From contig NZ_FMZH01000002.1 in the NCBI RefSeq assembly GCF_900101435.1, forward strand, positions 434,001-498,000: DNA of 64,000 bases, read 5' to 3'. The position numbers and the translations under genes were made by a program. Source of the stretch: Pedobacter soli (GTDB lineage: Bacteria > Bacteroidota > Bacteroidia > Sphingobacteriales > Sphingobacteriaceae). The notes beneath the pieces are model-generated. The model did no database searches, was not told the DNA's origin, and was given only the letters and a program-made list of their open reading frames with translations. The first letter of the stretch is position 1; the number at the start of each line of letters is the position of its first letter. Shown here one piece after another: positions 12,680 to 28,682 of this stretch.

Positions 12680-12712
12680 AACCACATATAAATCTATATG
12701 TGGTTATTTTTT
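12680..12712 (+). terminator. Terminator after the carboxypeptidase-like gene
   Basis: AACCACATATA at 12680-12690 pairs with TATATGTGGTT at 12695-12705 across an AATC loop, followed by ATTTTTT. Confidence 0.85.
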
Positions 12713-12745
12713 ATATTTACCTCCACAATACAACCTTATTATATC

Positions 12746-14731
12746 ATGAATATGACTAAACTATTTACTTTTTGTATGGTTTGTTGTGCTTTTGCGTTTT
12801 CAGCATCTGCCCAACAGGCTACTACACCTGCACCAACCAGCAATTATAATCCGGCTGAGGCATTTGGACCACTATTTTATACCCAAAATGGAAATGAATT
12901 CCGTTCTGCCATTGGCGCACCAGGACCTAAGTACTGGCAAAACCGTGTAGATTATAACATTACAGCTAACCTTGATGATACCAAAAACATGGTTAGCGGA
13001 ACGGTAACCATCACCTATAAAAATAACAGTCCAGATAAATTGCCTTACTTATGGTTGCAGTTAGACCAGAATACCTTTAAAGAAACCTCGCGTGGTTATG
13101 CAGTAACCCCTGCACGTAGCCGTTATGGTGCCCAGGGCGAAAAGTTTGATGGCGGATATAAAATCCAGAACATCAGTGTATCGCAAAAAGCTGCTGCGGT
13201 AAAATTTACTTCATTGGTAGAAGATACCCGTATGCAAATCCGTTTAGATCAGCCAATGGCTCCAAATGGCGATATCATTACCATTAAAATGGATTATTCG
13301 TATATCGTACCCAAAGAAGGATCGGACAGAACCGGGCATTTAACTACTAAAAACGGGGAGATTTTTGCCATTGCACAATGGTTTCCACGTATGTCTGTGT
13401 ATGATGATGTAATTGGCTGGAATACTTTGCCTTATTGGGGCGGAGGTGAGTTTTACTGCGAGTACGGTGATATCAATTTCGCTATTACTGCTCCGGCAAG
13501 TCACATTGTTATGGGATCTGGCGAATTGTTAAACCCTGCCGAAGTTTTTACCCCAACACAATTGCAAAGATGGAATGCTGCTAAAACCAGCGATGCTACG
13601 GTGCATATTCGTACAGAAGCCGAGGTTACCGATCCGGCATCCCGTCCGGCGAAAGATAAATTAACCTGGAAATTTAAAATTTTAAATGCCCGCGATGCGG
13701 CCTGGGCTTCATCAAAAGCTTTTGTTTTAGATGCGGCAAGGTATAAACTGCCAAGTGGTAAAACAGGTTTGGCCGTTTCGGCGCAGCCGGTAGAAAGTAA
13801 TGGTGTTGATAGCTATGGCCGTGGTGTAGAGTATGTAAAATCTACAATCGAGCACTATTCGTCAAAATGGTTCGAATATCCATATCCAATGGCGGTTAAC
13901 GTAGCAACCAATATTGGTGGTATGGAATATCCGGGTATTGTATTTTGCGGCTGGACTGCCAAAAAAGGAAGTGCGTGGGGCGTAATTGATCACGAATTTG
14001 GCCATACCTGGTTCCCGATGATTGTAGGTTCGAACGAACGTAAATATGGCTGGATGGATGAAGGTTTCAATACTTTCATCAATGGGATCTCAAAAAGCAA
14101 CTTTAACCACGGGGAGTACGCCAGTGCACCAACTGATATGAACAGAATTGGTAAAGCTGTGATCGGCAATCCGGCTTTCGAAAATATTATGCAAATGCCT
14201 GATGGAATGGCCGAACGTAATATTGGTGTTAACCTTTATAGCAAACCAGGCTGGGGATTAGATATTTTAAGAAACCAGATTTTAGGCGAAGACCGTTTCG
14301 ATTATGCTTTCCGCCAGTACATTAAAAACTGGGCATTTAAACACCCAACGCCATTCGATTTTTTCCGCTCGATGGAAAACGGGGCAGGCGAAGACCTGGC
14401 CTGGTTCTGGAGAAGCTGGTGGTTAAACAGCTGGAAAATGGATCAGGGAATTGCAAGTGTTGAAGCCGTTAAAAAAGACGATAAACTAGCTGGCTATAAC
14501 ATTAAAGTAGTAAACCTGGAGAAAATGCCAATGCCGATTATTCTGCAGATTAAAACCAAAAGCGGTAAAACAGATATCGTAAAAGTACCTGTTGATGTTT
14601 GGATGAAAAATACCAGCTGGTTGGTACGTTACCCAACAACCGAAGAAATAGAATCGGTAACTTTAGATCCTAATAAAGTATTACCAGATTCGAACCCTGA
14701 TAACAATACCTGGACAGCCACAGGTAATTAA
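12746..14731 (+). CDS. M1-family metallopeptidase
   Basis: A 661-residue secreted zinc peptidase. The start MNMTKLFTF is followed by a signal peptide ending in SASAQQ. The substrate-pocket motif appears as GGMEYPG near residue 391 in place of GAMEN, and the zinc site is HEFGH (His416, Glu417, His420) with the third ligand Glu439 in MDEGF exactly 18 residues later. A beta-sandwich domain precedes it ([19 protein letters not shown]). Bacteroidota secreted M1 enzymes are annotated as aminopeptidases; substrate preference is not visible. It is a single-gene unit between two hairpin terminators. Confidence 0.92.
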
Positions 14732-14751
14732 GAAATTGCTATCAAGCAGGA

Positions 14752-15255: not shown

Positions 15256-15258
15256 AGG

Positions 15259-15870: not shown

Positions 15871-15878
15871 TTTTGCTT

Positions 15879-15886
15879 TAACTTTG
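15879..15886 (+). promoter_or_regulatory. -7 box immediately before the VF530 gene
   Basis: TAACTTTG matches TAnnTTTG and ends four bases before the ATG at 15891. It overlaps the spacer after the methyltransferase stop. A -33 box is not evident. Confidence 0.4.
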
Positions 15887-15890
15887 CAAC

Positions 15891-16109
15891 ATGGCCGAAC
15901 AGCAAAAGAACAATCCCCTGCATGGTATTACCTTAGAGAAAATTGTAACCGATCTTCAGATGCATTACGGATGGGAAAAACTGGGAACACTAATCAGAAT
16001 TGATTGTTTTAATAACAACCAAAGCATCAAATCGAGCTTAAAATTTTTAAGAAGAATGCCTTGGGCACGTAAAAAGGTAGAAGATTTGTATCTGGATACT
16101 TTTCATTAG
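15891..16109 (+). CDS. VF530 family DNA-binding protein
   Basis: A 72-residue protein matching the VF530 (DUF2132) family. The signature is [12 protein letters not shown], then [28 protein letters not shown] and [13 protein letters not shown] solved family member has a compact helical fold that was linked to double-stranded DNA binding, but the cellular role is not established. It is probably transcribed from its own promoter directly upstream. Confidence 0.85.
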
Positions 16110-16207
16110 TGATTGCATTTTGAATGATTTTAATATCACTAAATAATTCACGTCACCTTGCAACCTTTCCGCTAAAATGTCCGTCATCTTTTTCTAAACC
16201 TTATCCT

Positions 16208-16606
16208 ATGAAAAATATTGCCTATTGTTTTTTGCTGATACTTGCTTTAAGTAGCTGCGCCTTTTCGACTATGACAACTGTTTATTCCAAATCGAAAGGA
16301 AAGATAGATGTAACCCCTAAAGAAAATTATACCGTAACGTATCAGGTCGGTTTTGAGGAAAACTTAAAAGCCGACGTTGCTTATACCGATGAAAGTGGTA
16401 AGCAAAGTAAATTAGAAAATATTAGTGGTGAATGGGAAAAGCAGGTAACGCTAAAGGCAGGCACCCATGTAGAACTTAAAACACTGGCTAAAGCGAAAAC
16501 AAAATCGCGGGCAACATACAAAATCCTGGTTGATGGAAAAGTGGTAGCCGAATACATCCAAACCGGAAAAAGGTTAAGTTATATGCTTGCTTTCGATTTG
16601 CCTTAG
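16208..16606 (+). CDS. Predicted lipoprotein
   Basis: A 132-residue protein starting MKNIAYCFLLILALSSCAF; the LSSC lipobox places the lipidated Cys at residue 18. The upstream 28-codon extension of the frame is not signal-like and is left out. The mature part is short, polar and beta-rich, with a lysine-rich stretch (TLKAGTHVELKTLAKAKTK). No family was recognised. It lies between VF530 and a tiny secreted protein, all on the same strand. Confidence 0.65.
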   Translation: MKNIAYCFLLILALSSCAFSTMTTVYSKSKGKIDVTPKENYTVTYQVGFEENLKADVAYTDESGKQSKLENISGEWEKQVTLKAGTHVELKTLAKAKTKSRATYKILVDGKVVAEYIQTGKRLSYMLAFDLP

Positions 16607-16684
16607 TTCATCAAATCTTCATATTGATTTTAGAGATTTAATAAACAAAATAACAAGGTTTATTCATCTTTAAATTAAATAGAC

Positions 16685-16855
16685 ATGAAAGCAATTAAAG
16701 TTTTAGTAATCGCATTAGTAGCCGCTTTTACCATTAATACCGTAAGCGCACAAACCACCACACCAGCCAAAACAGGAACTGAAAAAACACAGACCAAAAA
16801 AGGCTATAAACATCATCATCACAAAAAACACAAAAAAGCAGCAGCAAAAGCTTAA
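16685..16855 (+). CDS. Small secreted His/Lys-rich protein (56 aa)
   Basis: A 56-codon gene with a cleavable signal peptide, MKAIKVLVIALVAAFTINTV then SAQ, and a mature part of only about 33 residues. The mature part is Thr/Lys-rich and ends YKHHHHKKHKKAAAKA. A strong terminator follows five bases after the stop, supporting a real gene. Similar short, basic, histidine-containing secreted proteins are common in Bacteroidota and uncharacterised. Metal or polyanion binding is possible from composition only. Confidence 0.7.
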   Translation: MKAIKVLVIALVAAFTINTVSAQTTTPAKTGTEKTQTKKGYKHHHHKKHKKAAAKA

Positions 16856-16860
16856 AATAG

Positions 16861-16893
16861 AAAGTCTTTCAGGTAACCTGAAAGACTTTTTTG
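16861..16893 (+). terminator. Terminator of the small secreted protein gene
   Basis: A perfect 13-base stem, AAAGTCTTTCAGG with CCTGAAAGACTTT, and a TAA loop are followed by a T run. Confidence 0.95.
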
Positions 16894-16966
16894 TTACAGG
16901 CCGGATTTATATTAAGTATAAGTTGTTGATCTTAAGTTGTTTTATGGTACAAATGGAAAGGATTTA

Positions 16967-16980
16967 ACGCAAACGTTTGT
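16967..16980. promoter_or_regulatory. LacI/PurR-like operator 1
   Basis: ACGCAAACGTTTGT contains the CAAACGTTTG palindrome with the central CG typical of LacI-family operators and matches 13 of 14 positions of the PurR-type consensus. It lies 310 bases upstream of the transporter gene in the 435-base gap after the small secreted protein, which otherwise holds only AT-rich sequence. Confidence 0.5.
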
Positions 16981-17141
16981 TTCGCATTTCAACTTAACCA
17001 ATTTTGCCATTTTGTATCATAAATCAGTTTTAAAAACGAAAGATAAAAATACACGGAAAATTCGTCAATTTATTGATTTACATATGCCTTATTCAGCTAT
17101 TTAAGCAGGATTGATAATTTTATAAAAAATAGATTTTTAAT

Positions 17142-17154
17142 CAAACGTTTGCGT
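17142..17154. promoter_or_regulatory. LacI/PurR-like operator 2
   Basis: CAAACGTTTGCGT is the same palindrome as operator 1 in the opposite orientation, with the ACGC/GCGT flank facing outward in each case. It lies 137 bases before the start of the CHR transporter gene. The two sites are 172 bases apart, a spacing that would allow looping by a tetrameric repressor. Confidence 0.55.
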
Positions 17155-17290
17155 AAAGTTTTAGCGCTTTTATCTCCTCCAAAATCTATAAATTAGGTTA
17201 TTAGAAAATGCAGGCTATCCCAAACTAACTGCTGTTATTTATCATCTTATAGAAAAAGAATATCAGGTTAAACCTTAAATAAATCAAAAT

Positions 17291-18523
17291 ATGGAGCTAT
17301 CGGTGCAGGGAGGTTTAACTAAGGAAGCAATAACGCTGAGGTACCTCTTTTTTACCTTTTTTAAAATTGGTTGTGTAAGCTTTGGTGGGCACATGGCGTT
17401 GGTATCTTTAATCCAGACCATTATGGTAGATCAGGATAAAAGTATCGATAACGAACTGGTTTTGGATAGCGTAACCGTGGCTTCTTTTATGCCAGGGCCA
17501 ATGGCGGTAAATGTTGTGGCCAACATTGGTTATACACTTAAAGGTAAATGGGGTGCCATAACGAGCATGTTTGCGGTGCTGTTACCTGCCTGCCTGCTCA
17601 TCCTGTGCCTGGCTTATGTTTACTTTTCAAATGGTTTTAAAATAGAATGGACTTCGGTAATGCAGTATGTTGGCGCTACCATAGGCATCATTATTTTTTC
17701 TACCGGCTTGCAGTTGTTTCGAAAAGAAATAGCATTCAATTATAGTAAAATAGCGCTTTTCTTGTTAGCCATTGTACTCGATTTATTTGCCGGAAGTTAT
17801 ATTTTAACCATCTTTTTAATGCTGGTTGGAGCCATGGGCGGTTTATTAATAGATAGAGAAAAGAATAATTACAAAGCAATTTTAGGTAGCCCTAAAGTAA
17901 AATACAAACTGCAGTTAAGCCCGGTTTCTTTATCCATCCTTGTTGTTTTATTGGTTAATCAGGTATTGTTTGTAAGTAACTTTTTTAAAAATTATCCTAA
18001 TATTTTTTTAAAAATTACGACGGTTTTTTCTGGGATCAGTATCTCTTTGTTTGGGGGAGGGTACGTTATTGTGCCAATTATGCAATCTCTATTTGTTAAA
18101 GATTTAAACTGGTTAAATACCAAACAGTTTATAGATGCCATTGCTTTTAGTCAGGTTACACCCGGGCCTATTTTAGTTAGCTCTACTTTTATCGGTTATA
18201 AACTGGCCGGCTTTTCGGGCGCCTTGCTGGCCACCTGTTGCATGTTTCTGCCAGCAGCAGCACTCATGATTACGGTTGCTAAAATCTTTAACCGTACAAA
18301 AGACCATCCCTTAATTAAAAGCATGATTGGAGGCATTAAAGTAGTCGTAATCGGCCTCATTATTTCTTCTGCCTTTAAAATATTATTAATGCAACCCCGC
18401 ACCATTTTAGTTGGTGCTACAGCACTAATTGCATTTGTGCTAAGTTTTAAATATAAATTGAGTCCGGTATATTTAATATTGGGCGCAATCCTTTTCGGCA
18501 TTTTAAACACTTTTATTTCATGA
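17291..18523 (+). CDS. CHR-family (chromate/sulfate) transporter
   Basis: A 410-residue integral membrane protein made of two homologous halves, as in long CHR proteins such as ChrA. The first half has FGGHMALVSLI and SFMPGPMAVNVV, and the second has FGGGYVIVPIM and SQVTPGPILVSSTFIGYKLAG. Characterised members export chromate and are affected by sulfate. No other chromate or metal resistance gene is nearby. Instead the stop codon overlaps the start of a sulfotransferase gene (ATGA), and PAPS metabolism genes follow. A sulfate-related role is therefore plausible but is inference. Confidence 0.85.
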   Translation: MELSVQGGLTKEAITLRYLFFTFFKIGCVSFGGHMALVSLIQTIMVDQDKSIDNELVLDSVTVASFMPGPMAVNVVANIGYTLKGKWGAITSMFAVLLPACLLILCLAYVYFSNGFKIEWTSVMQYVGATIGIIIFSTGLQLFRKEIAFNYSKIALFLLAIVLDLFAGSYILTIFLMLVGAMGGLLIDREKNNYKAILGSPKVKYKLQLSPVSLSILVVLLVNQVLFVSNFFKNYPNIFLKITTVFSGISISLFGGGYVIVPIMQSLFVKDLNWLNTKQFIDAIAFSQVTPGPILVSSTFIGYKLAGFSGALLATCCMFLPAAALMITVAKIFNRTKDHPLIKSMIGGIKVVVIGLIISSAFKILLMQPRTILVGATALIAFVLSFKYKLSPVYLILGAILFGILNTFIS

Positions 18524-19551
18524 ACAACATTTCCAGTCCACATGGCATCCAGATAATTGGTACGCAACGCTCAGGCTCTAATCTGTTGAGGGTGATTTTA
18601 GATCAATCGGACGAAATTGCTTCGCCACACCCGCCTCACATTTTGGTTACTTTTGTACCCTTATTAAATTTATACGCTCCCTTAACAGCTGAAAGATACC
18701 TGGAGCTGGTTAGCGATGTGGTAGACTATGTAAATGCCAATCCCGTACCTTGGGATGGGGTTGAGCTGGATAAAGTCTGGATTTACGAAAACTCGAAAGA
18801 GCAGAGTTTATTTGAAATTAACCGTCTGGTGTACGAATCTGTAGCCCGTACAAAGAAAGCGAAATATTGGTGTTGCAAAAGTATGGCTAACGTACACTAT
18901 GCCAGCGAGCTGGAAAAGTATTCGCCCAAACTTAAATACATCTATTTATACCGTGATGGGCGCGATGTAGCTTTATCTTTTAAAAAAGCCATCGTTGGCG
19001 AAAAGCATATATACCATTTGGCTCAACAGTGGTTTAAAGACCAAACAGCTTGTATTGAGCTGTCAAAGCAAATTGAGCCTGAACGTTTTTTTGCCTTGAA
19101 TTACGAAGAACTGATTGCCAACCCTGAAGAGGTGATCAAAAAGTTATGCCATTTTCTAGAGATTGAGTATTTTGAAAGTATGCTAGATTTTCACCACTCA
19201 AAAGAATCGCTGGCTACAGCCAATGCAGGCGAAATGTGGGAGAATTTAGCTAAACCCATCATTAAAGACAATACCCGCAAGTTTTTAAAAGAACTTAGTG
19301 CCGAAGAAATCAATATATTTGAGCTAATCAACCAGCAAACTTTAACAGCACTTGGCTATACTTTGGTAAATCCTTCAGTGGAGGGGCAATATATTCCTGA
19401 AGCGGATATTTCGCTTTTCAATAGCGAAAATGCCCAAATGAAACAGCAGTTTATGGATAATGCCCGCCAATCGGATTTGGATAAGCGAAATCCACAGCTT
19501 GAAATATTAAAACGGATTAAAAACTCAAAAATAGTGCTCGATGCAAAGTAA
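18520..19551 (+). CDS. PAPS-dependent sulfotransferase
   Basis: A 343-residue cytosolic sulfotransferase with no signal peptide. The 5'-phosphosulfate loop is GTQRSGSNLLR (residues 14-24) and the 3'-phosphate motif is YLYRDGRDVALS (about 141-153), both near canonical. Such enzymes move the sulfuryl group of PAPS to a hydroxyl or amine of a small molecule, lipid or glycan; the acceptor cannot be predicted. Start and stop both overlap neighbouring genes (4 bases with the transporter, 11 with cysQ), showing tight operon coupling. CysQ and CysC next to it supply PAPS and clear PAP. Confidence 0.85.
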   Translation: MNNISSPHGIQIIGTQRSGSNLLRVILDQSDEIASPHPPHILVTFVPLLNLYAPLTAERYLELVSDVVDYVNANPVPWDGVELDKVWIYENSKEQSLFEINRLVYESVARTKKAKYWCCKSMANVHYASELEKYSPKLKYIYLYRDGRDVALSFKKAIVGEKHIYHLAQQWFKDQTACIELSKQIEPERFFALNYEELIANPEEVIKKLCHFLEIEYFESMLDFHHSKESLATANAGEMWENLAKPIIKDNTRKFLKELSAEEINIFELINQQTLTALGYTLVNPSVEGQYIPEADISLFNSENAQMKQQFMDNARQSDLDKRNPQLEILKRIKNSKIVLDAK

Positions 19552-20314
19552 TATTAGTGAAAGTATCGATATCCAGGCAATTTTGGATATTGCTGTGGCT
19601 GCTGGCGAGGCAATATTAACGGTGTATAACCGCGAAGAAGGTTTTGAAGTAGAAACCAAAAGTGATGCATCGCCTTTAACCATTGCCGATAAAATGGCAA
19701 ACGATATCATTTGTGCAGGGCTGAAAAAACTATATCCGGCAATTCCAATCATATCCGAAGAAGGAAAAAGTATAGCCTATGAGGACCGGAAAGATTACAA
19801 TTATTTCTGGTGTGTCGATCCGCTTGATGGAACAAAGGAGTTTATTAAAAAGAATGGCGAGTTTACTGTAAATATTGCACTTATTAAAGCGGAAACGCCT
19901 GTTTTGGGTGTGATTTACGTGCCTGTACAAGGAAAATTATATTACGGTAGCGAAACCATCGGTAGCTGGAAACAATTGCCAGGAGAAGCACCGCAGCAAA
20001 TTAAGGCTGTAAATACTTCTTCGTGGACAGCCGCGGTAAGCCGTTCGCATGCCGATGGGAAGGAAAAGGAAATCCTTAGTCAATACCCGGTTACAAACGC
20101 TATTGCTGTGGGTAGCTCGTTAAAATTTTGCCTTTTGGCAGAAGGCAAGGCGCAAATTTATTTAAGAACAGGCCCTACAATGGAGTGGGATACAGCTGCA
20201 GGTCATGCCATTATTTTGTTCAGTGGCTGCAGCATTACTACCTTATCCGGAAAGCCCATGTTGTACAATAAAGAGTCGCTGTTAAATGAAGGCTTTTTAT
20301 GTAAAGTTGATTAA
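19541..20314 (+). CDS. cysQ: 3'(2'),5'-bisphosphate nucleotidase CysQ
   Basis: A 257-residue Mg-dependent phosphatase of the inositol monophosphatase superfamily. Metal-binding motifs are visible: Glu73-Glu74 in SEEGKS, the DPLDGTKEF motif (Asp93, Asp96, Thr98) and WDTAAGHAI near the C-terminus. CysQ converts 3'-phosphoadenosine 5'-phosphate (PAP) to AMP and removes the product that inhibits sulfotransferases. Its position between a sulfotransferase and APS kinase fits this role rather than inositol phosphate metabolism. Confidence 0.92.
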   Translation: MQSNISESIDIQAILDIAVAAGEAILTVYNREEGFEVETKSDASPLTIADKMANDIICAGLKKLYPAIPIISEEGKSIAYEDRKDYNYFWCVDPLDGTKEFIKKNGEFTVNIALIKAETPVLGVIYVPVQGKLYYGSETIGSWKQLPGEAPQQIKAVNTSSWTAAVSRSHADGKEKEILSQYPVTNAIAVGSSLKFCLLAEGKAQIYLRTGPTMEWDTAAGHAIILFSGCSITTLSGKPMLYNKESLLNEGFLCKVD

Positions 20315-20339
20315 TTTTAAAAGCTAACATCTCTATTTC

Positions 20340-20915
20340 ATGCCACAACAAACAATGCCTAATCTTCCATCTTCTATTTCTGCTCAAAACGGACTGGTGA
20401 TTTGGTTATTCGGCCTTTCTGGTTCAGGAAAAACAACCATTTCTAACCTGTTGGGGGAGCAATTGAAAGCAGAAGGTTATTTTTCGGTTGCGCTTGATGG
20501 AGATGCATTGAGAGAAGGTATCAATAAAGATTTGGGCTTTAGTGAGCAAGATCGTACAGAAAATATCAGGAGGGCTGCAGAAATAGCCAAACTGATGTTG
20601 AACAATAATATCATTACCATTTGCTCCTTTATTACTCCGTTGCAGACTCAAAGAACCTTAGCTGCAGAAATCATTGGTGACCGCTATTTTGAGGTTTTTA
20701 TTGACTGTCCGCTGAATATCTGCCAGGAAAGGGATGTTAAAGGTTTATACAGGGATGCCAATCAAAATTTAATAACCAATTTTACGGGAGTAAGTGCAAA
20801 ATTCGAGCCTTCAACCCATGCCAATCTGGTTATCAAAACCAATACTGAAAACGCTACCCAAAGCACAAACAGGCTGTTTAGTGCAATTAGTCATCAGCTT
20901 AAATCTAGTAGCTAA
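20340..20915 (+). CDS. cysC: Adenylyl-sulfate kinase
   Basis: A 191-residue APS kinase, which phosphorylates APS to PAPS. The Walker A motif is GLSGSGKTT (residues 25-33), followed by LDGDALREGINKDLGFS and the family signature DRTENIRRAAEIAKLM. The enzyme has no fused ATP sulfurylase or CysN domain, and no cysD/cysN is in the window, so APS must come from genes elsewhere. It closes the tightly packed part of the operon; the next gene begins 200 bases later. Confidence 0.93.
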   Translation: MPQQTMPNLPSSISAQNGLVIWLFGLSGSGKTTISNLLGEQLKAEGYFSVALDGDALREGINKDLGFSEQDRTENIRRAAEIAKLMLNNNIITICSFITPLQTQRTLAAEIIGDRYFEVFIDCPLNICQERDVKGLYRDANQNLITNFTGVSAKFEPSTHANLVIKTNTENATQSTNRLFSAISHQLKSSS

Positions 20916-21000
20916 GATTTTGCCATTTGCTGGTAGCCGCTTAAAATATCTCCATTTCTTCATTCATTTTTGATCGTTTCCGGCGTTAAGTCCGATTAGT

Positions 21001-21010
21001 CAATCGATTG
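21001..21010. promoter_or_regulatory. Possible operator upstream of SusC
   Basis: CAATCGATTG is a perfect palindrome with central CG, similar in form to LacI-family operators, in the 200-base gap before the SusC gene. It differs from the CAAACGTTTG sites. Short palindromes occur by chance, so support is weak. Confidence 0.3.
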
Positions 21011-21115
21011 CGCAGTGTTTTGCTGTACAAGTGAATTGTTTAATGACTAATATTATATAAGCAAGAAGCAAGAGTCGTTGCTTTTTGCCTGCTATCAACT
21101 ATCAAACGAATCATC

Positions 21116-24100
21116 ATGACTAAAATTTACAGAACCACAGCTCATTATAGGGAGAGGATTCCTATAAGAAGACGCAATCTTTTTAACGCACTCTTAAAAA
21201 ATATTTATTGTTGTTTGTTTTTGCTCATTCCCGTGGCTGTTAGTGCCCAAACTGTAGTAACGGGTACGGTAAAAGACGAAAAAGGTTTGCCGGCGGTCGG
21301 AGCCTCGGTAACCGAAACCGATGTGAAGAATGGCACCTCGGTTGATGCGAACGGTAAGTTTACCTTAACCTTAAAAGGAAAGTTACGTGTTTTAAATTTC
21401 ACCTTAGTAGGGTATAAAACACAAAAGGTTACAGTTGGTGTTTCTAACGTGGTGAATGTAAACCTGGAAGAAGACTTAAATAAACTGAACGAAGTTGTAG
21501 TTGTAGGTTATGGTACCCAGCGTAAAACAGATTTAACCGGCTCTATCAGTTCTATTAAGAGTGACGACCTGAACTTAGGTGGTACTACATCCAATATCGG
21601 GCAGGCCATTCAGGGTAAGGCAGCGGGTGTTCAGGTACAGCAAACCAGTTTTGCACCGGGCGCAGGTATGCAAATTACCGTAAGGGGAGGTAACTCTATC
21701 AATACCACCAACAGTCCGTTGTATGTAGTAGATGGTTTTATCTCTGATAACGGAAGTACGATTAACCCGAATGACATTGAGGATATCCAGATTTTAAAGG
21801 ATGCTTCTTCTGCAGCTATTTATGGTGCCAGGGGCGGAAATGGTGTTGTTTTAATTACAACTAAAAAGGGTAAAGCCGGCAGGGTAGCTATCGATTTGGA
21901 TTTATCTAATGGTAACCAGTTTTTAACCTATAAACCCGCTTTATTAAATGGTCAGCAGTATACTGCCATTCAGAATGCTACAGCGCTTGAAGATGGCAAA
22001 CCAGTATTATTCCCACCATCTTTCAATATCGCAAATACCAACTGGATGGAAGAAGCTACGCAAAACGCTTCGGTACACAACAGAAGTTTAAGCATTAGCA
22101 GTGGCGATCAGAATTCAAAATTATATGTATCGGGTAACTACCTTAACCAAAAAGGAGTTTTAAAAGGAACCGGACTAGAAAAATATACAGCAAGAATTGG
22201 TGCAGAAAAGAACCTTAATGAGCGTTTAAAATTAGCTGGTAACTTTTACGGTTCTACTGCTAAAGTATTACAACAATCTTACTCTGCCGATATTACCGCA
22301 CCATTGTTTGGTTTATTAACCGCATTGCCTAATATCCCGGTATATAATGCTGATGGAAGCTATTTCCGTTATCAGGGTAAAAACAATGCACTGGCAAGTT
22401 TGCTGGAGCCAACCAATACCAGTACCAATAAACTGGCTAATGCCAATGTTTCTTTGGATTACCAGATTATTAAAGGACTAACCTATCACTTAGGGGCAGG
22501 TGCTGAGTACACCAACCTTAACGAAGGACAGTACATTCCAAGAACATTAACCGCAGGTGCAGTAAATAATGGAATTGCCGCTCAAAAAGCCTCAACCACA
22601 TTTAGGTGGCTGGTAGAAAATTATTTAACCTATAAATTTAACTTCGGTAGTCATGATTTTACTGCCTTAGCAGGGGTTTCAAACCAAAAAGATGTGAACG
22701 AATTTATCGCTGCCGGTAGTAAAGGTTTTCCAACCGACGAATTTTTATTCTACAATCTTGGCGCGGGTTCAACACCAAACGGAACTAACGTTACCATAAC
22801 CAATTTGGGTAATGGCTACAATAGCTTTAAGGAGCAGTCTACCTTTAACTCAATGTATGCCAGGTTAAACTACGGTTATAAAGACAAGTTGTTAGCTTCC
22901 TTTACCTTAAGAAGAGATGGTTCATCGAAATTCGGACCTAATAACAGTTATGGTATTTTCCCATCAGGTGCTATTGCCTATAAATTTACTGATGAGGAAT
23001 TTATCAAGAACTTAAATACTTTTTCTAACTTAAAATTGCGCGCCAGTTATGGTGTTACCGGTAATGACAGGATTACGAACTATTTGTATTTACCTACTTT
23101 TACCAATTACAGTACGGTACTTAACCCTGGCGATCCATTACAAATTGGAACAGAGCCTAAAACCTTAGCAAACCCAAATCTAAAATGGGAAAGTACCAAA
23201 CAGTTTAACATTGGTTTGGATATGGGTTTCTTTGACGGACGTTTAAATGCCACTATCGATTTGTATGCAAAAAAGACATCCGATTTATTAATCAATATCC
23301 CAATCGAACAATACTGGGGATTTAGCTCTCAATTAGTAAATGCAGGTTCGATCCAGAATAGGGGAGTTGAATTGTTAATCAATACCGTAAATATCCGAAC
23401 TGATAACTTTACCTGGAATTCTAACTTTAATATTTCGCTAAACAGACAAAAAGTATTATCGTTAGGTCCAATAAACCAAATCTCAGTAAATACAGCAAAT
23501 CCAAGTGGTACGGTATCAGGGCGTGAATTTTCGAGGGTAATGCCAGGCAGAGAGCTTGGAGAGCTTTTTGGATATGTTTACACAGGCGTAATTAAAACCG
23601 GAGAAACTTATGCCCCACAACCAAATTCTAAGCCAGGCGATCCGAAATACCAGGATACGAATGGCGATGGAAAAATTACACCGGATGATATGACCTTTTT
23701 AGGTAATTCGAGCCCCCGTTACAGTATGGGTTTAGGTAACGATTTCCATTATAAAGGTTTCGATCTGAATATTTTCTTCCAGGGTGCTTTTGGTTATTCT
23801 TTATATAACATGAACAGATTGGTATTGGAATCGACCACTGGTGCCGATGCTTTGAACAGGTTTGTGGCTGGTGTTAACGAAAATACAGATATTCCACGTG
23901 AAGGATACTTTTTAAGTACCTATGGTAGTTATGTTAACTCACGTTTCGTAGAAAATGCATCATATGTAAGGTTAAAATCTGTTTCTCTTGGTTATAGCTT
24001 ACCAGCTAAAATTTTCGATCGCATAAAGGTGATAAAAGGCTTGCGGGTATATGCCGAAGGACAGAATTTATTTACCATTACCAATTATACCGGAACCGAT

Positions 24101-24208
24101 CCGGAAGTAAACTCGCACTCAGGTAGCAACTTTGGCGGCGGGATAGATTTTAACGCATTCCCGGCTTTCAGAACATTTTCGGCAGGTGTAAAATTAACCA
24201 TCAATTAA
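21116..24208 (+). CDS. SusC/RagA-family TonB-linked outer membrane protein
   Basis: A 1030-residue outer membrane transporter. A signal segment ends at VSAQ, then comes a carboxypeptidase-like domain (TGTVKDEKGLPAVGASV), the plug with VVVGYGTQRKTDLTGS and VYGARGGNGVVLITTKKG-like sequence (here IYGARGGNGVVLITTKKG), and a beta-barrel ending in AFPAFRTFSAGVKLTIN. There is no STN domain, and no ECF sigma or anti-sigma gene is adjacent. SusC proteins import ligands captured by a partner SusD, here the next gene. Position behind PAPS genes and before an ASST-like protein suggests a sulfated or phenolic ligand, but no glycoside hydrolase is present. Confidence 0.95.
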   Translation: MTKIYRTTAHYRERIPIRRRNLFNALLKNIYCCLFLLIPVAVSAQTVVTGTVKDEKGLPAVGASVTETDVKNGTSVDANGKFTLTLKGKLRVLNFTLVGYKTQKVTVGVSNVVNVNLEEDLNKLNEVVVVGYGTQRKTDLTGSISSIKSDDLNLGGTTSNIGQAIQGKAAGVQVQQTSFAPGAGMQITVRGGNSINTTNSPLYVVDGFISDNGSTINPNDIEDIQILKDASSAAIYGARGGNGVVLITTKKGKAGRVAIDLDLSNGNQFLTYKPALLNGQQYTAIQNATALEDGKPVLFPPSFNIANTNWMEEATQNASVHNRSLSISSGDQNSKLYVSGNYLNQKGVLKGTGLEKYTARIGAEKNLNERLKLAGNFYGSTAKVLQQSYSADITAPLFGLLTALPNIPVYNADGSYFRYQGKNNALASLLEPTNTSTNKLANANVSLDYQIIKGLTYHLGAGAEYTNLNEGQYIPRTLTAGAVNNGIAAQKASTTFRWLVENYLTYKFNFGSHDFTALAGVSNQKDVNEFIAAGSKGFPTDEFLFYNLGAGSTPNGTNVTITNLGNGYNSFKEQSTFNSMYARLNYGYKDKLLASFTLRRDGSSKFGPNNSYGIFPSGAIAYKFTDEEFIKNLNTFSNLKLRASYGVTGNDRITNYLYLPTFTNYSTVLNPGDPLQIGTEPKTLANPNLKWESTKQFNIGLDMGFFDGRLNATIDLYAKKTSDLLINIPIEQYWGFSSQLVNAGSIQNRGVELLINTVNIRTDNFTWNSNFNISLNRQKVLSLGPINQISVNTANPSGTVSGREFSRVMPGRELGELFGYVYTGVIKTGETYAPQPNSKPGDPKYQDTNGDGKITPDDMTFLGNSSPRYSMGLGNDFHYKGFDLNIFFQGAFGYSLYNMNRLVLESTTGADALNRFVAGVNENTDIPREGYFLSTYGSYVNSRFVENASYVRLKSVSLGYSLPAKIFDRIKVIKGLRVYAEGQNLFTITNYTGTDPEVNSHSGSNFGGGIDFNAFPAFRTFSAGVKLTIN

Positions 24209-24244
24209 TAATTTCTATCCATTAGGAATAATAAAGATAAAGAG

Positions 24245-25762
24245 ATGAAAAGATATAAGATTATTATAGCCATAGCTGCAATTGTACTTTTGCAGTATTC
24301 TTGTAAAAAGGATCTGGATCCTGTAGTATATAGCAGTTTAACCAGTACCAATGCCTTTAAAACAAAATCGGATGCCATTGCTGCAGTAAATGCAGTTTAT
24401 GCCCGCTTAAAAGGCCCTTCAGTTGGCGACAATTTTGATTACTGGACAGTTAGACACTTTGCATTAACAGATTTAACTACCGATGTAGGGCACTGTAGTT
24501 ATGGCGGCGACCCTGGCCAACTATCTAATGTTCAATGGAATTCGGCAAATGGTTTAATTGCTGAAGATTGGAGGCAGATTTACAAACTGATTTCGAATGC
24601 GAATAATGCAATTTTCAATATCAGCCCCATGACCAGCCTTTCGCAGGCAGAAAAAGATCAGTTCCTGGCAGAAATCAAATTTTTAAGGGCAGTTGCCTAC
24701 ATGGATTTAACAGATGCCTGGGGGCCTGTAATTCTGGCAACAGAAAAAGATTTGGTAAATCCTGATTATACCAAAAATGCAACGCTAACACCACTTGATC
24801 AGATAGAAGCGTTTTTGATTAACGACTTGCAGGCAGCAGCCAATACCTTACCTGCTAGTTATGCAAACAACCCAATATATTCAACTAATGATGCCGGAAG
24901 AGCTACAAAAGGTGCAGCCCTTACTTTATTGGCTAAATTATATTTGCGCCAGCACCAATGGCAAAAAGTGGTAGATGTTACCAAACAGGTGATGGATTTA
25001 AATATTTACTCGCTTTATCCTAGTTATGCAGGGCTTTTTGCCGAAAGTAACAAATGGTGTGCTGAAAATATTTTCTCGGTATTAAGCGATGCCAATGTAA
25101 ACGGGACTGAACTATTGAACCATTTTGGTCCATCAAATCACCCGGTTTTAACCGATAGATGGCAATATTATGCGGTAACCTGGGATTTTTATAATAGCTT
25201 CGACGCAGCAGATGATAGAAAAAAACTCTTTTTTGCTGAGTATACCGGTGTTGATAAATTGGTATACAAACAAGCACCAACGCTTGGCGCCACACCCCCT
25301 GCAGGTACTTTTTATATGCAGGATGTGGCCACCGCAAAATATGCAGACCCGAACGGTGCAAATACCTATTACGATGGCCATAGTGTAAATATTTTGCGCT
25401 ATGCCGATGTATTGCTAAGCAGAGCAGAGGCCATTAATGAATTAAGTGGTCCAAACGCCGAGTGTATCGACCTGATTAACCAGGTAAAAGGTAGATCGCA
25501 TGCTAAATTGCTGGTTGCAGCCAACTATAACCAAACCACATTAAAAGATGCGCTTTTGCAGGAACGTGGCTGGGAATTATTTTATGAAGGCAAAAGAAGG
25601 GCAGATTTAATGCGCTTTGGTAAATATGAAAGCATTGTAAACGGGTATTTAAAACGCATTAACCAAACCCCAACGGTAGTTATGCCGCGCGATCAGTATT
25701 TCCCGTACCCTTTAAACCAGGTAAATATTAACCCGAATTTAAATAACTCGGGCAGACAATAA
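24245..25762 (+). CDS. SusD/RagB-family surface lipoprotein
   Basis: A 505-residue lipoprotein; the signal MKRYKIIIAIAAIVLLQYSC carries the lipidated Cys20, followed by KKDLDP as is usual. SusD-type features include the helical TPR-like core (AFKTKSDAIAAVNAVYARLK, LAEIKFLRAVAYMDLTDAWG) and the C-terminal segment LLQERGWELFYEGKRRADLMRFGKY. SusD proteins cap the SusC barrel and bind ligand at the surface. It lies 36 bases after the SusC gene and is clearly its partner. Confidence 0.95.
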   Translation: MKRYKIIIAIAAIVLLQYSCKKDLDPVVYSSLTSTNAFKTKSDAIAAVNAVYARLKGPSVGDNFDYWTVRHFALTDLTTDVGHCSYGGDPGQLSNVQWNSANGLIAEDWRQIYKLISNANNAIFNISPMTSLSQAEKDQFLAEIKFLRAVAYMDLTDAWGPVILATEKDLVNPDYTKNATLTPLDQIEAFLINDLQAAANTLPASYANNPIYSTNDAGRATKGAALTLLAKLYLRQHQWQKVVDVTKQVMDLNIYSLYPSYAGLFAESNKWCAENIFSVLSDANVNGTELLNHFGPSNHPVLTDRWQYYAVTWDFYNSFDAADDRKKLFFAEYTGVDKLVYKQAPTLGATPPAGTFYMQDVATAKYADPNGANTYYDGHSVNILRYADVLLSRAEAINELSGPNAECIDLINQVKGRSHAKLLVAANYNQTTLKDALLQERGWELFYEGKRRADLMRFGKYESIVNGYLKRINQTPTVVMPRDQYFPYPLNQVNINPNLNNSGRQ

Positions 25763-25863
25763 TTTCATATTTTTATGATTACAAAAAGGAATATATAGTT
25801 TTTACTATGTATTCTTTTTTGTTTATAAGCAATATCCCACATATCTTTAATGATCAGAAGTTT

Positions 25864-27264
25864 ATGAAGTATATTTTAAAATCGGTAGTATTTTTACTGG
25901 TGCTGGCCCTTTCAGGATGCTCGGAAAAAGCCGGTATTAAAGAAATTAAAGTTGGCCTCCACAACAACAATGAATTGAAAATCCAGATTGATGTAAATAC
26001 CGGTTCGGACGCTGATGTTTATATCAAATACTGGCCCAACAAAATTGCCGATTCTGCCAAACTCGTTACAACCCTGTCGAAAGGGAAAAGTAAACACACA
26101 TTGGTATTGTGCAATATTTTGCCCAAAACCAGCTATGCCTATCAGGTAATTACGGTAAATAAGGGCGTTGAAACAACCAGTAAAACCTATACATTCGAAT
26201 CGCGCGAACTACCGGAGTGGTTAAAAGACCAGTTTAAAGCCAAAAGTGCCGATGATAAGTTGATTCCAAAGGAATTTAAAAACGGATTAATCCTCATCAA
26301 TAAAAGGTATTCGCCGGGGATGGCTTATCTGGTTGATTATAAAGGGAGGCTAAGGTGGTATCACCAGGTTGATAATGTGGGTTTCAAAGTCATCAATTTT
26401 AATAAAGATAAAACCTTGCTCTCTATTCTCGGAAGTAATGACGAGCCTACAAGTTATGGTAGCCAGATTTTGGAAATTAACCTCAATGGTGATACACTTT
26501 TGCACCTGAAAAAAGGACAAGCCGATTTTAAACAGACCATCCACCACGAAATTTTGAAAAATACCAAAGGCGAGCTGGTAACCTTGTTTATTGATCAGAA
26601 GATAACCGATTTAAGCCGTATTGGAGGAAGTAAACAGGATACCATAAACGGTGATGGCATTATGGTGATGGATCAAAAAGGAAAACAAATCTGGAAATGG
26701 AGTGTATTTGATGCCCTTGATCCATTTGCTGATAAAGCATTGCTCAAAACCAAAAAAGACTGGATGCATGCCAACAGCTTAAATTACGATACAGATGGCA
26801 ATTATATCATTTCTTTCTATAACAATGGGCAGATCTGGAAAATCGATTCGAAAACGGGTAAGGTAATCTGGAAGTTTGGCAAAGGAGGGGATATGACCAT
26901 GCCTGCCGAAGCCAGTTTTTCTCAGGCACATGCCGTACACATTAATGCCGAAGGCAATTTAATGTTTTTTGATAATGGGATAGATAAACACCAATCGGGA
27001 GTGTATACTTTTAAATTAAACCAACCGGCCAAAAGTGCAGCATTGGATATGCACATTAAATTACCCCCTCAGATTTATAACGACCGTATGGGGAGTGCTT
27101 ATATGATTACCCCTGAAAATATACTCTGCTGCAGTTCAAAAAGGCACATTATGGTATTAACCAATAGAAAAGGTGTGTTGCTGTGGACTTTAGAAGCATC
27201 GGTGCCTGCTTACAGGGCAATTTTTGTAAATTCGGAACAGCTAAGCCCCGTTTTAAAACCCTGA
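25864..27264 (+). CDS. Arylsulfate sulfotransferase (ASST)-like lipoprotein
   Basis: A 466-residue lipoprotein with lipobox ALSGC (Cys19). An N-terminal beta domain (residues 25-120) precedes a beta-propeller typical of arylsulfotransferases, which move sulfate from one phenol ester to another without PAPS. Conserved positions appear as HHEILKN (His227-His228), WMHANSLNYD (His302, Asn304), WKIDSKTGKVIWKFG and AHAVH...GNLMFFDNG (His356 as likely catalytic His). At the position where I remember a catalytic Arg, the sequence is ISFYNNGQIW, with Tyr319. The fold is clear; activity is uncertain. It sits 101 bases after SusD. Confidence 0.82.
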   Translation: MKYILKSVVFLLVLALSGCSEKAGIKEIKVGLHNNNELKIQIDVNTGSDADVYIKYWPNKIADSAKLVTTLSKGKSKHTLVLCNILPKTSYAYQVITVNKGVETTSKTYTFESRELPEWLKDQFKAKSADDKLIPKEFKNGLILINKRYSPGMAYLVDYKGRLRWYHQVDNVGFKVINFNKDKTLLSILGSNDEPTSYGSQILEINLNGDTLLHLKKGQADFKQTIHHEILKNTKGELVTLFIDQKITDLSRIGGSKQDTINGDGIMVMDQKGKQIWKWSVFDALDPFADKALLKTKKDWMHANSLNYDTDGNYIISFYNNGQIWKIDSKTGKVIWKFGKGGDMTMPAEASFSQAHAVHINAEGNLMFFDNGIDKHQSGVYTFKLNQPAKSAALDMHIKLPPQIYNDRMGSAYMITPENILCCSSKRHIMVLTNRKGVLLWTLEASVPAYRAIFVNSEQLSPVLKP

Positions 27265-27304
27265 TACCAACAACAAAATAAACAAACCAACTCATTTTAA
27301 GCCT

Positions 27305-27760
27305 ATGAAAAGAACTTTACTCTTAATCACTTTCAGCGCCATTTTATCTTTTGCAGGATGCAAAAAAGACCGGATTAATAATCTCAATAGTATCAGTTAC
27401 GGTACCTCATTTGGAATGTGCGTGGGCTATTGTTCCAATAATCTGTTCATCAGCGATTTGAAACTCACCTTTTCCAAATCAAAAAACGGCCAGGCCACCG
27501 ATACCAAAACCTGTAGCAAAACCATTTCTGAAGCAGATGTGAACGCCATAAAAAACGAACTGAACATGGAAAAAATTGCTGCCCTGCCCGAGACCATTGG
27601 CTGCCCCGATTGTGCAGATGGAGGTGCCGAGTGGATTGCGATTAATGCCGATGGTAAACAGTATAAAATTACCTACGAGTATGGTAAAGCACCTAAAGAA
27701 CTCGAGGCTGCGGTAGCCAGATTAAAGTTGTTGAAAGATGGTTTTAAGGATTGTAATTGA
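27305..27760 (+). CDS. Cysteine-rich predicted lipoprotein
   Basis: A 151-residue lipoprotein (MKRTLLLITF..LSFAGC, Cys19). The mature protein has FGMCVGYC near residue 38, a CSK segment and CPDCADGG, giving at least seven cysteines. The order of a cysteine pair, a beta strand, an S-E-A-D helix and a C-terminal helix resembles the DUF6438-like protein encoded on the other strand just downstream. It follows the ASST-like gene by 40 bases and may belong to the same transcript. Its 3' end overlaps the convergent gene by 17 bases. Confidence 0.65.
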   Translation: MKRTLLLITFSAILSFAGCKKDRINNLNSISYGTSFGMCVGYCSNNLFISDLKLTFSKSKNGQATDTKTCSKTISEADVNAIKNELNMEKIAALPETIGCPDCADGGAEWIAINADGKQYKITYEYGKAPKELEAAVARLKLLKDGFKDCN

Positions 27761-28682
27761 GTAATGTTGGCCAGTTAATACCAAGTGTCATCATTTTGGA
27801 GTAGATAGCGCTTAAGCCGAAAGTTCCCTGCATACCATAATCCTTAATAACTTTTGTTGATTTGTCTTTAAATGTAATTTTTAATGTAGCTGTCTGATCG
27901 TCGGTCCAGTTTACTGCGTAGTCATTTTTTAAGCTTTTAATATTGATATAATTGGCTAAGGCGGCTAGCTCATTAAAAGTATCGGGAGATAATTTTTTTG
28001 TTGATTTGCCCGTTTGTTTGGTGTAGCCAATGCCCTCATAATAAGCCATTCCGCTTTTAACAAGCTTTAAATTAAAAGACGGGCATGTTCCAAAGCAATA
28101 ACTGGTGTTAATTTCAATCGCTTCGATTTCATCCTTTTTAGCCTCATGTGCATTAAATTCAATAAAATCATTAAACTTAAAAGTCAACGTATCAAAAACC
28201 AATAAGCTTTTATATTGGAATGGTTGGTTATTTGCTTTATCCGGTTCATTCGTTTTACGAAATATTTTAAGGTGATTTCTTGAAGCAATTCGTGTGGGTT
28301 TTACAAACTCACAATTTTCGAAAGTATTTTTAGAAAAACTGTAAAACTTAAAATTGTTACTGCCAATATCTACTACTGCAGCTGAAAAATAACCACTCCA
28401 AGAGCCAATAAATATTAAATCTGTAAGGCCATCATTGGTTATATCAACTTTTTCCCAGTTTTTCATCCTCCATTTTTGGAAAATCCCTTCACAATCCAGG
28501 TTTTTGGCAAGCTGTTCTGTTGTTTGTATGCTGAAATTAGTGTCTTTGGCAAAGTCTTTATTTATTTGCTTAAGAAATCGTTCAACATCCTGGTCGGTTT
28601 TAAGCGAATCGATTTTATTTGAAAATGCATGAGTGCTAAAAAATAAAAGGATAATTAATGGTATACGAGCGTAATTATTCAT
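27744..28682 (-). CDS. Secreted protein with C-terminal DUF6438-like domain
   Basis: A 312-residue protein starting MNNYARIPLIILLFFSTHAFS, a signal peptide; the frame is open 11 codons further up. The middle (WEKVDITNDGLTDLIFIGSWSG) resembles an FG-GAP-like or VCBS-like repeat, and the last 120 residues begin INTSYCFGTCPSFNLKLVKSG, a CFGTCP motif that I associate with DUF6438. The function of that domain is unknown. It is convergent with the cysteine-rich lipoprotein gene and overlaps its stop. Confidence 0.65.
   Translation of the reverse strand: MNNYARIPLIILLFFSTHAFSNKIDSLKTDQDVERFLKQINKDFAKDTNFSIQTTEQLAKNLDCEGIFQKWRMKNWEKVDITNDGLTDLIFIGSWSGYFSAAVVDIGSNNFKFYSFSKNTFENCEFVKPTRIASRNHLKIFRKTNEPDKANNQPFQYKSLLVFDTLTFKFNDFIEFNAHEAKKDEIEAIEINTSYCFGTCPSFNLKLVKSGMAYYEGIGYTKQTGKSTKKLSPDTFNELAALANYINIKSLKNDYAVNWTDDQTATLKITFKDKSTKVIKDYGMQGTFGLSAIYSKMMTLGINWPTLLNYNP

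Follow-up and report, generated by a model that had tools for sequence, protein, structure and literature searches.

A sulfotransferase, CHR transporter, SusC/SusD and ASST-family gene island in Pedobacter soli and its possible role in a sulfate relay

Gene content and sequence features of the island

The window is a stretch of 64,000 nucleotides of Pedobacter soli (contig NZ_FMZH01000002.1, positions 434,001 to 498,000). It carries seven genes on one strand in the order CHR-ST-cysQ-cysC-SusC-SusD-ASST, with a further gene of interest upstream of them.

12698..14731, + strand: secreted M1-peptidase-like protein, possible accessory part (zinc motif HEFGH...E intact)
17291..18523, + strand: CHR-family membrane transporter, two-domain, the proposed carrier exporter (PF02417, TIGR00937)
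18520..19551, + strand: ST, PAPS-type sulfotransferase (Sulfotransfer_3)
19541..20314, + strand: cysQ, 3'(2'),5'-bisphosphate nucleotidase, clears PAP (TIGR01331)
20340..20915, + strand: cysC, adenylylsulfate kinase (TIGR00455)
21116..24208, + strand: SusC/RagA TonB-linked outer-membrane transporter (TIGR04056)
24245..25762, + strand: SusD/RagB lipoprotein (CKKDLD after the signal)
25807..27264, + strand: ASST-family propeller lipoprotein (PF05935; lipobox; likely start at 25864)

CHR and ST overlap by 4 bases and ST and cysQ by 11 bases; the remaining gaps are 25 (cysQ to cysC), 200 (cysC to SusC), 36 (SusC to SusD) and 44 bases (SusD to the ASST ORF). The gene content, order and overlaps given in the initial annotation were confirmed for all seven genes by profile searches and coordinates. 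Homologues of the M1-peptidase-like protein lie within or adjoin 12 of 79 ST loci. No carbohydrate-active enzyme, glycoside hydrolase included, was found among the Pfam-scanned ORFs of 12698-28715. No carrier-synthesis gene was recognised; a type III PKS, as Tang is said to have described for caprazamycin in 2013, is absent among those ORFs of the window that were scanned with Pfam. A reading as a defence system was dropped: with CysC, CHR, ST, CysQ and ASST as input, SusC and SusD being left out, padloc returned one weak match for CysC (VakA, 21.9 bits) and none for the other four proteins.

The ST scores 96.3 bits against Sulfotransfer_3 (cut-off 27), and use of PAPS is predicted from the family. 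Its motifs IIGTQRSGSNLLRVIL and RDGRDVA-S, which we take to be the 5'-phosphosulfate loop and the 3'-phosphate motif, are invariant in 10 of 10 orthologues. CysQ and CysC also exceed their cut-offs (TIGR01331, 285.6 against 228.8; TIGR00455, 188.6 against 138.7). The island ST and the island cysC are the single matches to their profiles in the genome. The genes cysD, cysN and cysH are grouped on a different contig, and PAPS synthesis beside the ST is incomplete, comprising cysC and cysQ only. The CHR protein matches PF02417 in two stretches (226.6 bits) and TIGR00937 at 207.4 (cut-off 171.7), in agreement with the two-domain chromate-transporter profile; it gave nothing at E 0.1 against solved structures. 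The genome encodes three CHR proteins (six domain matches). SusC matches TIGR04056 with 828 bits.

The ASST-family protein, unrelated to the ST and the single match in the genome, scores 107.1 against PF05935 (cut-off 24.2); translation probably begins with the ATG at 25864. The predicted structure, a single prediction, has the ASST propeller fold, with Z scores of 34.3 and 33.5 to Cpz4, about 31 to the E. coli ASST and 21.9 to the next fold. Cpz4 (9kf6, 9kf4) is also the closest solved relative by sequence (E 1e-13); no paper on structures 9KF6/9KF4 was found by PDB code in the open-licence PMC literature. Residues H375, H247, H321 and N323 correspond to His436, His252, His356 and Asn358 of the known ASST active site and do not vary among the 17 family rows. 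The position of Arg374 is held by Tyr338, and the protein is therefore filed as an ASST-family protein, not a proven ASST; aryl-sulfate transfer by it is putative. Arg occurs at this position in 43 of 87 ASST rows, 10 of which are duplicates. The Thr501 position lies outside the reliable pairwise stretch of the alignment. The protein had been taken for a surface protein, a placement that was not supported: despite the lipobox of the window's protein, a lipobox-like Cys is missing in 53 of 97 non-duplicate ASST rows (simple pattern), which points rather to a membrane-anchored protein in the periplasm.

Three operator-like palindromes precede the two halves of the island.

16970..16979, no strand assigned: CAAACGTTTG palindrome, LacI-type operator-like, 321 bp 5' of CHR
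17142..17151, no strand assigned: CAAACGTTTG palindrome (ATCAAACGTTTGCGT), 149 bp 5' of CHR
21001..21010, no strand assigned: CAATCGATTG palindrome (TTAGTCAATCGATTGCGCAG), operator-like, 115 bp 5' of SusC

The palindrome at 16970 is present in loci L055, L056 and L084, and in L057 with one mismatch; that at 17142 is kept in all five Pedobacter loci aligned upstream of CHR. A 26-base block at the 21001 palindrome is identical in five of five aligned Pedobacter loci. Among the 12 loci of the window type a LacI-type palindrome precedes SusC in all 12 and CHR in 11; the remaining locus is truncated by the end of its contig. A LacI orthologue is encoded at L223:5143-6159. The initial annotation had named separate regulation of the two halves as something that would speak against their link; in silico, for the window's architecture, LacI-type palindromes instead stand before both. 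No palindrome was found before CHR in six named loci of the clade with ST and ASST unlinked, nor before SusC or CHR in 18 Arg-type loci. Consensus promoters were uninformative, their number (40) being close to the shuffled expectation of 40.6, and TAnnTTTG, the Bacteroidetes -7 motif, is absent from the two intergenic regions in eight loci scanned.

Recurrence of the gene set in Bacteroidota

In a sample of 300 genomes of the order, all 31 genomes with the ST also carry an ASST (hypergeometric P 7e-28, kinship uncorrected). The two genes are linked in 25 of the 31, the ASST lying 3' of the ST in 13, which is the window's arrangement, and 5' in 12 (by coordinates), and are unlinked in six. An ASST is nearby in 10 of 10 ST genomes of the family sample. 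Among 79 ST loci of named genomes an ASST is near the ST in 55, most commonly in the order ASST-CHR-ST (36), with 11 having it downstream of CHR-ST; the other 24 have no ASST nearby. CHR lies directly 5' of the ST in 64 of the 79. A further order, CHR-ST-ASST behind SusC/SusD-like genes, was found in genome G391. Loci of the window type are carried by the cultured soil strains Pedobacter borealis (L057), P. kyungheensis (L055) and Mucilaginibacter lappiensis (L082), and the set of ST, CHR, ASST and SusC/SusD recurs across families and classes of the Bacteroidota.

The reverse association is looser: an ASST without the ST occurs in 23 of 54 ASST genomes of the order sample, where ASST neighbourhoods were read in 40 of the 54, and in 7 of 9 of the phylum sample. 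Of the six ST genomes of the phylum sample, four lack an ASST match at E 1e-40. Their STs score as weak relatives (144-235 bits), and neither CHR nor ASST was matched within the 20 kb around them.

In the ST tree the window type is nested in a 33-row clade with loci of the order SusC-SusD-ASST-CHR-ST (support 98). The ASSTs of these two locus types do not form one clade (p-AU 3e-5), and the ST module has therefore swapped its partner while the association was kept. The 70 cluster CHRs group together, apart from the two other CHRs of the genome (support 96), which is weak support only because both paralogue branches are very long. Taken with the co-occurrence, the recurrence across families and classes and the palindromes on both halves, the partner swap gives the functional link between the halves inferred in the initial annotation much firmer support than adjacency gave it. 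The comparison of neighbourhoods in relatives did not speak against the link for the window's architecture, in which the halves co-occur, but they lie apart in six genomes and ASST without the ST is frequent.

Genes neighbouring the loci of relatives encode GH20, glucosamine-6-phosphate deaminase, relatives of N-acetylhexosamine 1-kinase and GH123-type proteins; the GH123-type protein of locus L087 gave nothing at E 0.01 against solved structures. From these neighbours the cargo of SusC/SusD is most likely an N-acetylhexosamine-containing glycan. SusC/SusD pairs import, as is established for the family, and the acceptor is therefore assigned to the SusC/SusD of the window; the earlier suggestion that this pair moves a cytosolic product was not supported.

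A proposed two-step sulfate relay and competing readings

We propose, at a probability of roughly 0.5, that the PAPS-type ST, the PAPS-handling enzymes, CHR, SusC/SusD and the ASST act together to relay sulfate across the inner membrane in two steps. Judged by family membership, CysC would make PAPS using APS from CysDN encoded elsewhere, the ST would transfer the sulfate, still in the cytosol, to a small carrier with a hydroxyl group, probably a phenol, and PAP would be cleared by CysQ. Position and conservation suggest that the sulfated carrier would then cross the inner membrane, most likely via CHR. By comparison with Cpz4 and the E. coli ASST, the membrane-anchored ASST would take the sulfate on His375 and pass it to an acceptor, which, to go by the neighbours in relatives, would be the molecule captured by SusC/SusD, most likely an N-acetylhexosamine-containing glycan.

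Export of an organosulfate by CHR is proposed from position and conservation. CHR proteins are chromate exporters, and we know of no organosulfate substrate for them. Chromate is an analogue of sulfate, and CHR adjoins cysC and cysQ here, so that CHR might instead import sulfate for PAPS synthesis while the donor reaches the periplasm otherwise. This doubtful reading competes with the relay at a single step and can otherwise hold alongside it. It gains from the available part of the account of the BT_0416 cluster, in which BT_0412 is proposed as sulfate importer (PMC9417993). However, 30 of the 64 CHR-ST loci have neither cysC nor cysQ in the available locus, some of them being short contigs, and CHR therefore follows the ST and ASST genes, not those of PAPS synthesis, as the prevalence of the ASST-CHR-ST order also indicates.

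The active site of the ASST admits a rather unlikely reading, in which the lineages with Tyr/Phe and Ala/Pro, including that of the window, have lost transfer and become a glycan- or ligand-binding propeller of SusC/SusD, while ST and CHR independently make and export a sulfated metabolite under the same regulator. Of 77 non-duplicate rows, 42 have another residue in place of Arg374, and the ASSTs of the 23 genomes without ST in the order sample carry Pro in 11 cases and Tyr/Phe in 7, the other 5 having a distant Arg form. Yet every readable row of the 87-row set retains the three histidines, among them the one that is sulfated in E. coli, bar one distant row gapped at H321; four more distant rows gapped there occur in a second set. 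For pure binding these histidines would be unneeded. It is unlikely that the ASST runs in reverse, SusC/SusD importing sulfated amino-sugar glycans from which it strips sulfate onto a phenolic acceptor as a sulfatase substitute, with ST and CHR handling the resulting sulfur or phenol. ST-less ASSTs do lie in loci of catabolic appearance, beside genes for GH123-type enzymes, N-acetylhexosamine kinase and LacI, where there is no PAPS-made donor and where a sulfatase is absent among the few Pfam-scanned neighbours. But the attached PAPS-type ST, cysC and cysQ would be left unexplained, and sulfate transfer from a sugar sulfate to a phenol is energetically uphill. The known ASTs, in the available part of a review, take sulfate from an aryl sulfate and pass it to phenols, alcohols and sugars (PMC13426309). 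A PAPS-dependent metabolite-sulfation operon that merely adjoins a SusC/SusD locus would suit the 200 bp between the halves, which contain a separate operator-like site, and the cases in which the halves lie apart or the ST has no ASST nearby; such a coincidence is very improbable and was rejected on the co-occurrence, the several orders across families, the partner swap and the palindromes on both halves.

Relation to known systems and significance

In bacteria the donor PAPS is found in the cytosol, which poses the problem of how targets outside it are sulfated. One solution, which we know so far for liponucleoside antibiotics, is a carrier that is charged from PAPS and discharged by an ASST. 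In the available parts of the caprazamycin literature, the PAPS-dependent ST Cpz8 and the PAPS-independent ASST Cpz4 of Streptomyces act in one pathway, in which sulfate passes from a phenolic sulfate to the hydroxyl of a sugar (PMC4257720, PMC6731281). A PAPS-charged donor feeding an ASST has a precedent in Cpz8/Cpz4, and like that pathway the window and 25 of 31 order genomes have a PAPS-type ST and an ASST in one locus. Unlike the window, the caprazamycin system is a Gram-positive antibiotic pathway with a triketide pyrone carrier, its available descriptions mentioning neither SusC/SusD nor CHR; the window ASST differs in its lipoprotein signal and in having Tyr for Arg374.

The Bacteroides cluster of BT_0416, which acts on cholesterol and steroids, likewise has a PAPS-dependent ST beside genes of PAPS metabolism, although there BT_0411 to BT_0415 are putative PAPS synthesis genes, whereas the CysDN genes of the window's genome are on another contig, and its description, as far as available, mentions no ASST, SusC/SusD or CHR (PMC9417993). 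The AssT of E. coli CFT073 is a soluble periplasmic protein encoded with DsbL/DsbI, no PAPS-dependent ST partner being named in the available part of the source (PMC13426309), and has Arg374 where the window protein has Tyr338. With polysaccharide utilization loci the island shares the SusC-SusD pair and LacI-type operator-like sites, and related loci have glycoside hydrolases and amino-sugar enzymes; it differs in that no glycoside hydrolase was found in the island and in encoding a PAPS-type enzyme that adds sulfate, in place of a sulfatase. Among the matches listed in the open-licence PMC literature, judged by titles and abstract openings, no description of the combination was found.

According to the available part of a 2026 review, the natural acceptors of most ASTs are still to be identified (PMC13426309). 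A conserved set of PAPS-type ST, CHR and ASST would give ASSTs a donor made within the cell, CHR proteins a role other than with chromate, and a SusC/SusD locus the function of adding sulfate. Tentatively, and as a possibility only, the set may represent a Bacteroidota-wide shuttle in which a PAPS-charged carrier is exported as an organosulfate by CHR and discharged by a periplasmic ASST onto N-acetylhexosamine glycans captured by SusC/SusD. If so, a locus for nutrient uptake would sulfonate what it takes in as it enters, rather than remove sulfate from it.

Gene content of the island

All seven genes called by the initial annotation were recovered in place on one common strand. They and further features of the window are as follows:

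1805-8263: alpha-2-macroglobulin family protein, 2152 aa
16685-16889: small secreted His/Lys-rich ORF shortly before the island, with a 13-pair hairpin behind it that is listed as a terminator-like element of the minus strand
17291-18523, +: CHR, chromate-transporter-family membrane protein; then ST (PAPS-type sulfotransferase, Sulfotransfer_3), cysQ and cysC, all +
21116-24208, +: SusC; then SusD, +
25807-27264, +: ASST, unrelated PF05935 propeller lipoprotein
27305-28715: convergent gene pair matching DUF6438; the match of the first gene stays below cut-off (23.9 vs 30 bits)
39901-43782: protein with collagen repeats; a PorP/SprF membrane protein of type IX secretion is encoded nearby

CHR shares its last 4 bases with ST, and ST its last 11 with cysQ; gaps of 25 and 200 bases separate cysQ from cysC and cysC from SusC. 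The genes rpsL, rpsG and fusA lie immediately downstream of the island. For ASST the ORF call begins at 25807; a start at 25864 is likelier, since a typical lipoprotein signal (MKYILKSVVFLLVLALSGC) begins there. Within its own genome the island has the only ASST, Sulfotransfer_3 and cysC matches, and CHR proteins number three. APS is presumably supplied from contig 13, where cysD, cysN and cysH stand together. Among solved structures, the CurM sulfotransferase is closest in sequence to ST (E 5.6e-12). A secreted M1-peptidase-like protein with an intact HExxH...E motif is encoded at 12698-14731; such a gene lies inside or beside 12 of 79 ST loci (homologues at L058, L059, L060, L061, L082, L122, L095, L097 and L115), in Mucilaginibacter directly after ST.

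Co-occurrence of ST and ASST

The family sample (151 genomes) contains ASST in 17 genomes, always immediately preceded by SusC-SusD, and ST in 10, all of which also carry ASST. Neighbourhoods were fetched for all 16 relatives among the 17. The window order (CHR-ST-cysQ-cysC, then SusC-SusD-ASST) occurs in two, one of them carrying an M1-like gene after ST. In another seven the order is SusC-SusD-ASST-CHR-ST followed by cysQ and cysC, the latter mostly on the opposite strand, and the remaining seven have no ST. In the order sample (300 genomes), ST was found in 31 and ASST in 54, and 31/31 ST genomes also have ASST (hypergeometric P 7e-28, a statistic that ignores relatedness). The two are linked by coordinates in 25 of the 31, ASST being downstream of ST in 13 and upstream in 12. 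In the six others (G227, G234, G274, G285, G286, G302) ASST is elsewhere in the genome, there too behind SusC-SusD. Among the 40 of 54 ASST neighbourhoods read, 35 have a profile-matched SusD directly before ASST and SusC ahead of it (G164 is cut by a contig end); the remaining five have a SusC match and a 535-544-aa gene, SusD-like in the one case tested.

Scanning of named genomes with the ST alignment gave 88 confirmed stretches, of which 80 were kept, representing 79 distinct loci. These include Sphingobacteriaceae, Chitinophagaceae, Spirosomataceae, Flavobacteriaceae, Prolixibacteraceae, Tannerellaceae and others, and single MAGs labelled Rhodothermota, Gammaproteobacteria and Armatimonadetes. 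In 64/79, ST has CHR as its immediate upstream neighbour. ASST-CHR-ST is contiguous in 36, of which 28 have SusC-SusD immediately ahead; 6 have ASST-ST, in 11 ASST lies downstream of CHR-ST, and in 2 it is elsewhere nearby. No ASST is nearby in 24, several of which are short contigs and six a Pedobacter clade resembling the unlinked genomes. Having been collected by ST, the set is uninformative on ASST without ST. An even phylum sample (395 genomes) has ST in 6, ASST in 9 and both in 2. Where ST occurs without ASST (four genomes), it is a weak relative (144-235 bits), and no CHR or ASST match was found in its neighbourhood. Six of the seven ASST-only genomes belong to one genus; the three read have SusC-SusD-ASST, then genes matching cytochrome, GH123-type and DUF5107 proteins in length, and the cytochrome beside ASST was confirmed in L192. 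A recurrent set beside ASST in L033, L044, L095 and L192 comprises GH123_N (about 1000 aa), DUF5107-TPR (about 1040 aa) or TsdA/SoxA-like cytochrome c proteins. Very large FG-GAP/UnbV_ASPIC proteins adjoin ASST and ST in MAGs (L096:7273-10617, L129:3392-7480).

Lineage exchange and operator-like palindromes

In the 80-row ST tree, loci of the window type form a 12-row clade (support 98) nested within a 33-row clade (98) that also takes in SusC-SusD-ASST-CHR-ST loci, a Niabella locus and the Pedobacter clade in which ST and ASST are unlinked. The 77-row ASST tree places window-type ASSTs in a Tyr/Phe clade of 30 rows (99) and, separately, 18 Arg-bearing ASSTs of SusC-SusD-ASST-CHR-ST loci in a clade of their own (100); a constraint uniting the 12 and the 18 lowers the log-likelihood by 142.7 units (p-AU 3e-5, quick trees). 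Because the two types group together by ST and not by ASST, the ST module has switched ASST lineage yet remained with an ASST. In G391 the order is SusC, a SusD-like gene, a 318-aa gene, CHR, ST and ASST. In G145, family-sample searches found neither ST nor ASST; its locus L186 (G145:C23:220000-239900) retains a cysC (73% identity to the window's) at the corresponding place on the rpsL side, together with another SusC/SusD, and the joint absence there of CHR, ST, cysQ and ASST is a natural loss.

In the window, CHR is preceded by two palindromes of the pattern CAAWCGWTTG, at 321 and 149 bp (CAAACGTTTG), and SusC by one at 115 bp (CAATCGATTG). TCAAWCGWTTG has 3 copies in the window, two at the island, vs 0.19 expected. 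Across 2.34 Mb of non-duplicate loci, 78 of 84 sites are outside ORFs, and the genes faced within 600 bp are SusC (41), CHR (18) and others (30). CAAACGTTTG has 69 copies and CAATCGATTG 8, vs 0-7 each for eight other ten-base palindromes. Window-type loci carry a site before SusC in 12/12 and before CHR in 11/12, the twelfth being cut by a contig end; in Mucilaginibacter both sites are CAAACGTTTG. In the 18 Arg-type loci (Arg at the Arg374 position of ASST) neither SusC nor CHR is preceded by such a site; one of these loci is truncated ahead of SusC. Among the 18, Parapedobacter L038 encodes a hybrid two-component regulator next to cysC; in L037, an additional locus of the Arg type, a gene for a propeller histidine kinase diverges from the cluster. 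A LacI regulator and an N-acetylhexosamine-1-kinase-like gene adjoin several ST-less loci and the window-type Mucilaginibacter locus L058, with the same palindrome sites; CHR and the kinase-like gene are divergent across shared sites in L059, L122 and L185. The LacI orthologue of the window genome (contig 14, 68% identical; next best full-length 34%) has a palindrome 64 bp before it, and we infer that it binds these sites. A further operator-like site, TCAAACGTTTG, lies after rplQ at 63808-63818, with no ORF assigned to it within the window.

Active site of ASST and the proposed relay

The AlphaFold2 model of ASST (pLDDT 88.9, pTM 0.84) is closest by Z to Cpz4 (34.3 and 33.5), then E. coli ASST (about 31), the following fold scoring 21.9; by Foldseek E-value an E. 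coli ASST chain is first (9e-17) and Cpz4 second (1e-16). Against the active-site residues listed in a review (PMC13426309), H247, H321, N323 and H375 match His252, His356, Asn358 and His436, and Tyr338 occupies the Arg374 position. That position is Arg in 43, Tyr in 25, Phe in 8, Ala in 6 and Pro in 5 of 87 rows (10 duplicates). Among the 77 non-duplicate rows, a biased sampling, 34 of 35 Arg and 25 of 42 non-Arg rows have ST in the locus. Of the 23 ST-less order-sample genomes, 11 carry Pro, 7 Tyr/Phe and 5 a distant Arg form that lacks an aligned His356, so that 0/23 have the full set. L119:1128-3916 holds two tandem ASST genes, both with His, His, Arg, His at these positions. ASST was initially taken for a surface protein. 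By a simple pattern, a lipobox-like Cys is present in 44 of 97 non-duplicate rows and absent from 53, so an anchored periplasmic protein would fit better.

Cpz8 is described to sulfate a triketide pyrone with PAPS, and the ASST Cpz4 to hand this sulfate to a sugar hydroxyl (PMC4257720, PMC6731281); the two-step logic fits the island, with the difference that a membrane would lie between the steps. ST, together with cysC and cysQ, would act on the cytosolic side and ASST outside the cytosol, with CHR connecting the two. Energetics favour transfer from PAPS through aryl sulfate to sugar sulfate. CHR could alternatively import sulfate; however, it follows ST and ASST even where the examined locus has neither cysC nor cysQ (30/64 CHR-ST loci), which indirectly favours handling of the ST product. 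Clues to the acceptor come from neighbouring genes: in Flavobacteriaceae these encode GH20, glucosamine-6-phosphate deaminase, a sodium symporter and an MFS transporter; loci of Bacteroidales and those lacking ST have GH123-type and DUF5107 proteins; a GH109-like protein, GH16 and N-acetylhexosamine 1-kinase relatives are further neighbours. ASTs are able to sulfate GlcNAc in vitro, according to the review (PMC13426309). Some marine loci have GH2, GH31, MGH1-like proteins and one sulfatase instead, so the acceptor may differ between loci. The functional link first proposed between the PAPS genes and SusC/SusD/ASST is supported well beyond the initial annotation. Its putative chemistry, a relay of PAPS-ST and ASST in two steps, would here involve a CHR transporter and SusCD as well and would extend across Bacteroidota.
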